From Bacillus sp. KH172YL63 (GTDB lineage Bacteria; Bacillota; Bacilli; Bacillales; Bacillaceae_B), in contig NZ_AP022842.1 in the NCBI RefSeq assembly GCF_011398925.1, forward strand, positions 422,001 to 486,000: a stretch of DNA of 64,000 nucleotides, in the 5' to 3' direction. Shown here in pieces: positions 43,293-46,041 of the stretch (the first letter of the stretch is position 1; every line of letters starts with the position of its first letter). The position numbers and the translations under genes were made by a program. The notes below the pieces were generated by a model. It was not told the origin of the DNA. It saw nothing but the letters and a program-made list of their open reading frames with translations, and made no database searches.

Positions 43293-43374
43293 TTACTTTA
43301 AGGAGTAAAATAATTACGTTTTAAGATAAAAAACTATTGCTTTTGAAAGTAAAATGAATTACCTTATTAAGTAA
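43293..43374 (+). promoter_or_regulatory. Four phased 16-bp inverted repeats, candidate operator array
   Basis: Four related 16-bp sites begin at 43293 (TTACTTTAAGGAGTAA), 43314 (TTACGTTTTAAGATAA), 43337 (TTGCTTTTGAAAGTAA) and 43359 (TTACCTTATTAAGTAA). Steps of 21, 23 and 22 bp place them on about the same helix face. Each is an imperfect dyad TTACY-N6-AGTAA. They end 17 bp before the HTH/F1-beta-like gene, so autoregulation by its product is likely. The site at 43337 also resembles the core of arrays A and B. Confidence 0.65.
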
Positions 43375-43390
43375 GGAGGGGATATTTTCC

Positions 43391-44440
43391 ATGAAAGATC
43401 ATTTACGCTTGAACGTTCCGCTGCTGCGCCGACGGGTGCCCAACCTGACGACTGCAGCCAAAACGGTCGGACTCCGTCCTGCCACTGTATCAAATTTATG
43501 CACAGGTAAAATTTCGGTCGGCCGAGCCGAAGTGAAGACGCTTGTGACGCTTGCCAACCTGGCCGAATGTACGTTGGATGAATTGATTATTCAAGGAGGG
43601 AAAGTAAGTATGATAGAAACGGGGATTAAACCGATTGACTTATTTGCACCGATTGTACAGGGGGGGACGAATGGATTCGTTGCCCGGTCACAGATCGGCC
43701 AGTTTGTTGTGTTGGCTGAACTGACAAGTGTGTTGAAGAAAAAGGGTTATCATTCGATTTTACTGACGCCGGACAAATCATATCCAGGCTTGAGCGACCT
43801 TGAAGCGTTCGTCGATGTAAAATGTCATGGCATTGACGATGCGTTTGCTGAAGTGTCCCTCATCGGGGATAAAGACAAGGTTCTGTTATACGTCGACCGT
43901 TCCTTTGTCCTGTCCGGCGAACTGTATGACCTGAGGGAACGTTTCGAAGCCGACGGTTATGCGGATATTACAACATTCTTATTCGACCCGAGCGGCGAAG
44001 CGGTTGATGAGGACGATCCATTCGGACCCCTTGATACACTGTGCTACTTCGATATAGACCTGGCCACGAGGGGAATCTATCCTGCGATCCATCCAGTACA
44101 GTCGACGTCTGTCCTTCTGGAGGATGATGCACTGGAATCAAGTCATACCTCGACGAATAAAAAGGCGAAAACATTACTCAGACGTTACAAAGAAATCCGT
44201 GTACTCATGAACACACTCGGCAAGGAGAAGATCCCCGAAGCCGATCTCGAGCGCTTCCACATCGGGGAGAGACTCGAAGCCTACTTAAGCCAGCCCTTCT
44301 ATGTGGCAGAAGAATTCACCAAAGTCAAAGGCCAAACCGTCCCGGTCCAACACACCATCCAAGACATCCAACACATCCTGCAAGGCCAATACAACAACCA
44401 GGACCCCAAAGACCTTACCTACAAAGGCAAACTGACCTAA
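43391..44440 (+). CDS. Fusion of XRE-type helix-turn-helix with degenerate ATP synthase beta-like domain
   Basis: A 349-aa protein. Residues about 1-70 form an XRE/Cro-like DNA-binding domain (TTAAKTVGLRPATVSNLCTG, then VKTLVTLANLAECTLDELI). From about residue 75 the sequence follows the F1-ATPase beta subunit: ETGIKPIDLFAPIVQGG, GIYPAIHPVQSTS (228-240), RRYKEIRVLMNTLG, and LSQPFYVAEEFTKVKG. The Walker A motif GGAGVGKT has become ARSQIGQF (98-105), losing the lysine and threonine, and GERTREG with the catalytic glutamate is absent. The tyrosine (Y230) and phenylalanine (F309) that hold adenine in F1-beta are kept. It is probably a non-hydrolysing, perhaps nucleotide-sensing, regulator. AAGGAGGGG precedes the ATG. 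It is a single gene. Confidence 0.8.
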   Translation: MKDHLRLNVPLLRRRVPNLTTAAKTVGLRPATVSNLCTGKISVGRAEVKTLVTLANLAECTLDELIIQGGKVSMIETGIKPIDLFAPIVQGGTNGFVARSQIGQFVVLAELTSVLKKKGYHSILLTPDKSYPGLSDLEAFVDVKCHGIDDAFAEVSLIGDKDKVLLYVDRSFVLSGELYDLRERFEADGYADITTFLFDPSGEAVDEDDPFGPLDTLCYFDIDLATRGIYPAIHPVQSTSVLLEDDALESSHTSTNKKAKTLLRRYKEIRVLMNTLGKEKIPEADLERFHIGERLEAYLSQPFYVAEEFTKVKGQTVPVQHTIQDIQHILQGQYNNQDPKDLTYKGKLT

Positions 44441-44610
44441 AGCCTGAGGGACAAAGCCTGAGGGACGGACCTCCCCGGTGAAGAGAATAAGCATCAAAAG
44501 TGGGTCAAAACGAGGAGGGACGGACCTCCTCGTTTTGACCCGATACCAGGAACCGAACCCGTTCCCAAGCCTTTTCAATGCCGGTAAGGAGTGGGAAACA
44601 GTTGATTTTG
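44441..44610. other. Intergenic repeats with GGGACGGACC motif and a perfect 17-bp hairpin
   Basis: AGCCTGAGGGAC is doubled at 44441 and 44457. GGGACGGACCTCC occurs at 44462-44474 and 44517-44529. A perfect 17-bp stem joins 44502-44518 to 44525-44541 with loop GACGGA; no T run follows, so it is not an ordinary terminator. No gene is supportable here. Confidence 0.7.
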
Positions 44611-44656
44611 AGGCACGGACCTCTACTGAAAAGTGGAGGTCCGTCCCTCTTTTTTG
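44611..44656 (+). terminator. Terminator built on the GGGACGGACC motif
   Basis: ACGGACCTC at 44615-44623 pairs with GAGGTCCGT at 44636-44644, followed by CCCTC and six T residues. Confidence 0.85.
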
Positions 44657-44730
44657 GAAGATAAAAGAGGATTTAGGAGTATTTTGTCGTATGTGTATGG
44701 TAATACATTTTTTTCGTGGGAGATTTATTG

Positions 44731-46041
44731 ATGCTGGTTGAGAAGTTGTTATTGCATGTATTGATCATATTGGCGCCTGTACTCGTTCAGACGTCTCTCC
44801 TTGAGAATCATAAGCTGGGGAAATCTCCTGTGTTCATTGGGGTGCTGCACGGGTTGGCGGCTTTTATGTGCCTGATCTTTGCATATGAAAGCTTCGGTTT
44901 GTACTGGGATTTTCGTTATATTCCCTTGGTTCTTTCGATGCTGTACGGCGGAAGGAAAGCGGGGGTCATCGTATTTCTGTTTATTATCGCTGCCCGGATC
45001 ATCAATGGGGGGGATGCCCTCGTCTTCGGTTTCATCAGTGCGTTTTTGGCCGGATTCATGCCGTTTTTGATTTCCAATCAGTTCTGGTCTTTTTCCCCTA
45101 AAAAGCGTGTGACGTTCGCCGTCTTGCTTGGGTTCTGGCCAGCACTTGTCATGTTGGCGATCCTCCTGTCATATGCGTTCATCACGGGAGTCCCTGTGTC
45201 GGGGAATCAAGAGATGGGGATCTATGTCGTGATTTTCGGTGGCATCCAGGTATTGGGAGTGGGACTTGCAGCTCAGTTGAACGAATGGATGATTGAAAAG
45301 AAGCAGTTGAGAGAAGAGATCATGAAGTCGGAGAAGCTCAACACCCTCGGGGAGCTGGCTGCTTCGATTGCCCATGAGGTCCGGAATCCGTTAACGGTCG
45401 TGAAAGGCTTTCTTCAATTGATGAAAAAGCAGGTGAAGGGCGACCATGATGAATATTTGAAAATCGTGCTGAGTGAGCTTGGAAGGGCTGAAGATATCAT
45501 CAATGATTACTTGAACTTTGCCAAGCCGGAGCTTGAAAAGGTTGAAAGGGTCAATGTGAAGGACGTCTTAATGGACGTCAATTTCCTTCTGAACGCCTAT
45601 GCCTTGAAAGAAGGGGTTCATTTGGAGGCGGATGTGGAGGAAGAGGGTCTGTTGTGGACAGACCGGAACAAACTGAAACAGGCCTTCGTCAATATCATCA
45701 AGAACGCGATCGAAGCGACACCTCCGCAGGGAAGTGTGAACGTCAGCCTGGAAGTGAAGGACGCTTTGGCTCTGATCACCGTGAAGGATACGGGAAAAGG
45801 GATGACAAAGGAACAGGTTGCGAAACTTGGGACATTATTTTATACAACGAAAGATCATGGAACGGGCCTTGGTACATCGGTCTCCATCCGTATCATTGAG
45901 GCAATGGGGGGCAATGTCCGTTACTCAAGCGTTGTGGGAAAAGGAACGACTGCGGTCATCACCCTGCCGATGAATAGTGAAAAGATAGCCAGGTTACATC
46001 CTGAATCAAATAAAAAGTTCATGCATAAACAAAACGCTTAG
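44731..46041 (+). CDS. Sensor histidine kinase, KinB-like (5TMR-LYT type)
   Basis: A 436-aa kinase. The first 190 residues hold five or six membrane segments of the LytS-like 5TM receptor type (GLHGLAAFMCLIFAY, then RYIPLVLSMLYGGRKAGVIVFL and AFLAGFMPFLI). The HisKA domain reads ELAASIAHEVRNPLTVVKGFLQLM with phospho-accepting histidine 215. The ATPase domain has NIIKNAIEA, VKDTGKGM and GTGLGTSVS. The layout matches the sporulation kinase KinB, which feeds Spo0F. No response regulator is adjacent. I chose the ATG at 44731, behind GGGAG. The input signal is unknown. Confidence 0.87.
   Translation: MLVEKLLLHVLIILAPVLVQTSLLENHKLGKSPVFIGVLHGLAAFMCLIFAYESFGLYWDFRYIPLVLSMLYGGRKAGVIVFLFIIAARIINGGDALVFGFISAFLAGFMPFLISNQFWSFSPKKRVTFAVLLGFWPALVMLAILLSYAFITGVPVSGNQEMGIYVVIFGGIQVLGVGLAAQLNEWMIEKKQLREEIMKSEKLNTLGELAASIAHEVRNPLTVVKGFLQLMKKQVKGDHDEYLKIVLSELGRAEDIINDYLNFAKPELEKVERVNVKDVLMDVNFLLNAYALKEGVHLEADVEEEGLLWTDRNKLKQAFVNIIKNAIEATPPQGSVNVSLEVKDALALITVKDTGKGMTKEQVAKLGTLFYTTKDHGTGLGTSVSIRIIEAMGGNVRYSSVVGKGTTAVITLPMNSEKIARLHPESNKKFMHKQNA

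Follow-up and report, generated by a model that had tools for sequence, protein, structure and literature searches.

The operator of HipB, one of the XRE/Cro-C1 one-component regulators to which CylR2 and SinR also belong, has an 8-bp spacer. In the TipA system of Streptomyces, translation from two start codons yields TipAL and, as the predominant product, the effector-only TipAS, which sequesters thiopeptides (PMC7762955). The F1-ATPase beta subunit (F1-beta) has also been repurposed, and the Mycoplasma F1-like proteins are described as ATPase complexes and not as DNA-binding regulators (PMC3369863, PMC12994834). Here we describe a gene of Bacillus sp. KH172YL63 that bears a likeness to each of these systems. 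It lies in a 64,000-nucleotide stretch of DNA (contig NZ_AP022842.1, positions 422,001 to 486,000 of the forward strand), hereafter the window, and its product is a helix-turn-helix (HTH) domain fused to a degenerate F1-beta. Judging from the sequences of the gene, its relatives and their upstream regions, we consider it reasonably probable that the product is a TipA-like, dual-product, self-regulating one-component regulator that uses the dead F1-beta domain as its sensor.

A preliminary description of the window had read the protein as an HTH joined to an F1-beta-like remainder, and this reading was borne out by fold and profile searches, in which residues 70-349 showed the F1-beta fold with its nucleotide-binding and C-terminal helical domains. 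The profile and structure comparison proposed there thus returned a match to F1-beta, and not the lack of a significant one that the description had named as refuting its reading. In an NCBIfam profile search the protein scored 114.5 bits against TIGR01039 (AtpD), below the curated cut-off of 462.85 bits; the AtpD of the same genome is encoded elsewhere, separate from the fusion gene. When modelled alone, the HTH gave five helices in a Cro/C1 fold (predicted local distance difference test score 88.4), and the top Foldseek matches of this model were CylR2, an XRE antitoxin and P22 C2, with probabilities of 0.99-1.00, though with E values of 0.01 or more. The window protein matched HTH_26 with 16.6 bits against a Pfam cut-off of 22, and a Pfam HTH was found at E≤0.01 in 22 of 28 family members. 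The only families recurring across these 28 were ATP-synt_ab, ATP-synt_VA_C and the Cro/C1 HTH; neither a MerR HTH nor a TipAS domain was among them, and the N-terminal beta-barrel PF02874 was not among the seven families that the members matched at E≤0.01, the HTH standing in its place. One 516-aa relative, from Paenibacillus tarimensis (P0338), carries an additional domain, PF09350 (named DnaJ family domain-containing).

The loss of catalytic residues that the preliminary description had noted in the one protein proved to be family-wide. Alignment to the AtpD of the same genome placed the P-loop GGAGVGKT opposite ARSQIGQF, so that the Walker lysine and threonine are gone; GERTREG has no counterpart, GER lying opposite DKS and TREG opposite a gap, and 24 residues are absent after the Walker B region. 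Among 255 aligned relatives, a count that takes in a small number of fragments as well as a stand-alone beta-like protein, position 104, that of the Walker lysine, is Q in 250 and K in 3, while R99 is kept in 245. The Walker B-like D169, correctly picked out in the description, is accompanied by R170 (248), D199 (255), D221 (253) and R227 (252), and the near-invariant D199, D221 and R227 correspond to V, E and M in the AtpD of the same genome. The aromatic residues Y230 and F309, reported as kept, are largely so in the family (230 Y or F in 242, 309 F or Y in 232), as is F303 (228); we take 230, 303 and 309 to be the aromatic adenine-pocket positions of F1-beta. In the HTH, R29, A31, T32, V33, S34, L36, E47 and T50 are each kept in 253 relatives, the remaining two having gaps. 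Because the loss of catalytic residues is common to the whole family, the broken active site is, on these alignments, itself a conserved design. As to the suggestion in the preliminary description that the domain might still bind a nucleotide, the pocket aromatics are largely kept, but ordinary Mg-ATP binding is made less likely by the arginine of the phosphate loop.

The repeats that the preliminary description had mentioned upstream of the gene without describing them are four putative operator sites, 16-bp near-palindromes of the form TTAC-N8-GTAA spaced at 21, 23 and 22 bp (Table 1). A loose form of the pattern, picked after the sites had been seen, was matched five times in the window, where 0.5 would be expected; one of these matches, at 44415, lies outside the array. 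Arrays of this kind are found again in other genera: 70 of 82 loci had two modules with scores of 10 of 12 or better, whereas 20 dinucleotide shuffles gave a mean of 2.05 and no more than 6. When a site was kept only if it lay 20-24 or 42-46 bp from another, the 81 usable upstream regions had three sites in register in 36 cases, two in 21, four in 13 and none in 11; of the 132 neighbouring pairs kept, 100 were 21-23 bp apart, 2 were 24 bp apart and 30 were 42-46 bp apart, and 202 sites gave the consensus TTAC[TG]YTWWARMGTAA. Among the 11 loci without register, L047 and L075 have an array at the head of the operon instead, several more have one site, and genome G581, with the same protein start as the register-less L072, has sites about 350 bp farther upstream. 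A site with TTGC instead of TTAC stands where a -35 element would be expected, 17 bp before TACTAT/TACCTT inside the last site, and from this position and the TTGC deviation we infer the -35 and -10 elements. The layout of the array suggests repression.

The operator pattern proved to be largely confined to the gene. The strict pattern GTAA-N5-7-TTACNYTWWRRNGTAA gave 37 matches in 31 of 73 gene-carrying genomes and none in 73 gene-less genomes of the same order (Fisher p = 1.6e-11), and 29 of the 37, in 23 genomes, lay by their coordinates at the gene or at its operon head. The eight others comprised matches before an ABC transporter gene (G586), an FmdA-like amidase gene (G558) and a stand-alone beta-like gene (G431), together with a single site before a peptidase-like gene in G472 and four matches inside coding regions (G660, G705, G746 and G685), the last five of which were taken as chance. 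A three-site pattern was present in 13 of 80 genomes against none for the reversed control, 12 times at the gene and once at the G586 transporter gene (locus L170), which is distant from the regulator. Within the genus, 26 of 31 genomes had the exact single-site pattern, and 23 of the 29 loci read held the gene; the off-gene exact sites at the other 6 (some further matches had no locus) showed no shared gene by eye. In the genome of the window itself, the array of the gene was the best tandem match, with 1 mismatch, the next having 2 and the rest 3; an exact composite match at 3565648, upstream of an NhaC-like gene (by eye), was set aside as a single site of which about one is expected by chance (an estimate). 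The arrays and their near-absence away from the gene strengthen the regulatory role that the preliminary description had proposed for the dead F1-beta domain.

A feature absent from that description is an internal start at M74, preceded by its own Shine-Dalgarno sequence. M74 is methionine in 117 of the best 120 of 1014 database matches and in 227 of the 255 relatives, and isoleucine in the AtpD of the same genome. The mean Shine-Dalgarno energy before M74 at 82 loci was -11.35, compared with -8.44 when synonymous codons were redrawn (mean z -1.35; p<0.05 at 35 and p<0.2 at 64 of the 82), whereas among control positions of these genes the lowest mean z was -0.57. In keeping with this, the codon for G69 is GGG at 51 of 79 loci against 25% of other glycines, and that for E70 is GAG in 89% of 53 against 26% of other glutamates. 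The main start, chosen as the candidate with the best Shine-Dalgarno sequence, is TTG or GTG at 27 of the 82 loci. Because the internal ATG is conserved and its Shine-Dalgarno sequence favoured by synonymous codon choice, a short product lacking the HTH is a likely prediction. Genome G431 (protein named Lottiidibacillus patelloidae) has a further gene for the beta-like domain without the HTH, which starts at the M74 position and has its own array; this gene (L134, 3922-4731) sits between glutamate/dicarboxylate symporter-like and alanine symporter-like genes, as judged by eye.

Proteins with this fusion form a conserved family in bacteria of soil and sea. Of 5.8 billion proteins searched, 1014 matched at E≤1e-3, the best 120 of which were nearly all near 349 aa, and by protein name the family reaches Paenibacillus, Alicyclobacillus, Symbiobacteriaceae and, more distantly, Chloroflexota; for relatives among the genomes of 84,980 species, the best 80 of 257 encoding stretches were used. 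The genome survey that the preliminary description had called for found the gene in 88 of 397 sampled genomes of the order (two being broken fragments) and in 31 of 135 genera, in 13 of 16 genomes of a genus sample, and in 3 of 398 genomes of a phylum sample, that of the window included. In the tree the window copy groups with Rossellomorea, a copy from a genome named Rossellomorea lies in a group of Pseudalkalibacillus/Alkalihalobacillus copies, and Lederbergia has two Paenibacillus copies as partners (100/99); this mixing of lineages suggests transfer.

Several observations weigh against the reading of the gene as a self-regulating, dual-product regulator. A sigma-70 scan reported no promoter at the array. 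The strict pattern stands at the gene or operon head in only 23 of the 73 genomes, and eight genomes have a match elsewhere, four of them inside coding regions; since 29 of the 37 matches are at the gene, the contrast with gene-less genomes reflects mainly a low background elsewhere. In the genome of the window, reversed controls outnumber matches to the operator patterns, so nothing there points to a wider regulon. As regards the internal start, position 74 is other than methionine in 28 of the 255 relatives, the main Shine-Dalgarno sequence is stronger on average (-13.6 against -11.35), the internal one is weak (energy above -7) at nine loci, L047 and L075 among them, and one control stretch 22 codons after M74 has a mean energy of -10.0. 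In addition, the loci are related, and the counts overstate their independence.

In the mechanism that we propose, full-length dimers would bind the TTAC-N8-GTAA palindromes about every two helical turns across the putative -35 and -10 elements and thereby repress the gene's own promoter. The second start on the same mRNA would yield the beta-like domain alone, which would share the ligand site of the long form and, by analogy with TipA, might buffer or sequester the ligand, a step that we put forward tentatively. Ligand binding would relieve repression, the long form adjusting expression, and in some species its control might extend to a stand-alone beta-like gene, to an ABC transporter or to an amidase and hydrolase pair. 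The ligand would probably sit, without being hydrolysed, in the remodelled nucleotide pocket formed by R99, Q104, D169, R170 and the aromatic residues at 230, 303 and 309. These occasional targets, the patchy spread and the signs of transfer fit a response to a foreign compound, and the kept aromatic residues fit an adenine compound.

The last point is also the starting point of a different and rather unlikely explanation, in which the adenine pocket binds AMP, ADP or another adenine compound and the HTH reports the energy state of the cell. The fold is an ATP-binding one and its pocket aromatics are largely kept; however, the P-loop lysine and threonine are replaced and an arginine is inserted, and an occurrence in 88 of 397 genomes would be odd for a general energy sensor. 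Moreover, a 12.5-kb stretch that takes in the atp operon of this genome had no 8-of-8 sites, three 7-of-8 sites and no array, so control of that operon was rejected.

Further from likely is that the protein senses an amide or its product and controls an FmdA-like amidase, the F1-beta fold being a scaffold only. A gene of the FmdA_AmdA family (PF03069) is near the regulator at 4 of 80 named loci from three lineages (L021, L047, L075 and L083), where roughly 0.1 would be expected from its frequency, a rough estimate. At L021 and L083 it lies about 30 bp downstream of the regulator, at L047 and L075 the order is array, amidase, alpha/beta hydrolase (by eye) and regulator, in G536 and G658 an operator site, the amidase and the regulator are in one apparent operon, and in G558 and G596 the amidase is distant from the regulator yet has operator sites. 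Against this, an FmdA-like gene was found at E≤1e-30 in only 36 of the 80 genomes searched, and as the other 44, that of the window included, have none at this threshold, the amidase would be an optional target; most of the genes found are at most 51% identical and away from the regulator, with no array at the two distant ones scanned (L206 and L208) or at a 57% homologue (L205). An FmdA-like amidase stands behind operator sites at six loci (L047, L075, L173, L174, L196 and L201), in some with an alpha/beta hydrolase; the two scanned, those of L196 and L047, score 50.7 and 57.7 bits against a formamidase model, far below its cut-off of 500.

We find it improbable, too, that the system is one of target-mimic resistance, in which bacterial F1-ATPase beta would be the target of natural compounds and the dead F1-beta domain would serve as their sensor and decoy; the short form would soak up the compound, and the long form would release the promoter and, where present, an exporter and a compound-cleaving amidase or hydrolase. 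On this reading the 22-bp ladder might even carry a single F1-like ring made of three or four dimers. Aurovertin as the ligand was set aside, the resistance residue of E. coli beta falling on A297 here. Also doubtful, and the least probable of these readings, is that the beta-like domain, mainly as the short form, contacts the ATP synthase (alpha or gamma) or its assembly while the HTH only holds its level constant. In its favour, the gene's own array is the sole strong one in most genomes where an array was found, and the C-terminal domain retains many F1-beta positions; yet the near-invariant D199, D221 and R227 differ from AtpD, and the gene is missing in 309 of the 397 genomes of the order, in which an ATP synthase is presumably present. 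A chance fusion, frameshift or decaying pseudogene can be dismissed, for despite two broken copies in the order sample, 86 of the 88 gene-carrying genomes have no internal stop, and the near-constant length and near-invariant residues over the 255 aligned homologues contradict it. We retain the self-regulating regulator with a dead F1-beta sensor as the favoured explanation.

Table 1. Features of the fusion gene and its surroundings, in window coordinates
Feature	Position	Strand	Remark
Putative operator site 1, TTACTTTAAGGAGTAA	43293..43308	+	conserved array; loose-pattern match
Putative operator site 2, TTACGTTTTAAGATAA	43314..43329	+	conserved array; loose-pattern match
Putative operator site 3, TTGCTTTTGAAAGTAA	43337..43352	+	its TTGCTT (43337-43342) is the putative -35
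Putative operator site 4, TTACCTTATTAAGTAA	43359..43374	+	overlaps the putative -10 (43360-43365)
Main Shine-Dalgarno, AAGGAGG	43373..43379	+	touches operator site 4; duplex energy -12.0 for the 17 nt preceding the start
HTH + degenerate F1-beta protein	43391..44440	+	349 aa
Cro/C1-type HTH domain	43391..43597	+	residues 1-69
Internal Shine-Dalgarno, AAGGAGG	43593..43599	+	10 nt before ATG at 43610
Predicted second product from internal ATG (M74)	43610..44440	+	beta-like domain alone, 276 aa
Degenerate P-loop, ARSQIGQF	43682..43705	+	residues 98-105
Walker B-like Asp169	43895..43897	+	D in 241 of 255 relatives
Possible intrinsic terminator	44615..44644	+	13-pair stem with T tail, inside a dispersed genomic repeat

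Apart from the gene and its antisense open reading frames, gene clusters flanking the fusion recur in at most 19 of 81 loci, which is synteny of the Rossellomorea group, and few recur beyond it. Because recurrence outside this group is rare, the GDPD and histidine kinase genes that flank the fusion look like plain synteny. The kinase (44716-46041, +), which is conserved beside the gene within the Rossellomorea group and which we take to be KinB-like, has an N-terminal five-transmembrane region and the domains HisKA, HATPase_c and 5TM-5TMR_LYT. Between the two genes, at 44460-44649, lies a dispersed repeat made up of GAGGGACGGACCTCC and its reverse complement, often as inverted pairs. The genome has 22 exact copies in forward and 25 in reverse orientation, 47 in all, against none for a reversed control; the terminator-like hairpins after the gene are made up of this repeat.

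Public databases carry the proteins as 'ATP synthase beta subunit C-terminal domain-containing protein', as 'helix-turn-helix domain-containing protein' or as 'F-type H+-transporting ATPase subunit beta'; of these names the last misleads, and none gives a regulatory role beyond the HTH. The preliminary description knew of no described regulator of this type, and likewise our literature searches, whose coverage left out most subscription papers and preprints, showed, among the papers listed, no description of the fusion, of an XRE regulator with an F1-beta sensor or of such control of FmdA-like genes. If our interpretation is true, a catalytic subunit of the rotary ATP synthase lost its activity and was recruited to sense for a regulator, which would make it an effector domain of a new kind among one-component regulators. 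With exact positions for both the operator sites and the internal start, binding, ligand and short product are directly testable in an environmental genus.

Compared with F1-ATPase beta (AtpD, TIGR01039), the fusion shares the fold over residues 70-349, the C-terminal helical domain, the adenine-pocket aromatic residues and the GIKxxDLxAP start of the nucleotide domain; unlike AtpD, it has no N-terminal barrel, Walker lysine and threonine or GERTREG, is shortened after Walker B and has gained an HTH. The Mycoplasma F1-like ATPases (MSC_0618 and MMOB1670, as NCBIfam matches) resemble it as repurposed forms of F1-beta. With the XRE/Cro-C1 regulators it shares the HTH fold and, putatively, a palindromic operator with an 8-bp spacer. 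With TipAL/TipAS it shares an N-terminal HTH followed by a C-terminal effector domain, and it would also share the two products from two starts and the control of its own promoter, whereas the HTH is of Cro/C1 and not MerR type, the effector domain is F1-beta-like and not TipAS, and the protein is a predicted repressor where TipA activates; the likeness to TipA is thus one of working plan by analogy and not of membership. The four-palindrome ladder, the conserved internal start and the occasional further putative targets are new here, and the use of a dead rotary-ATPase subunit as sensor is, as far as the literature was searched, new within the known class of one-component regulators.
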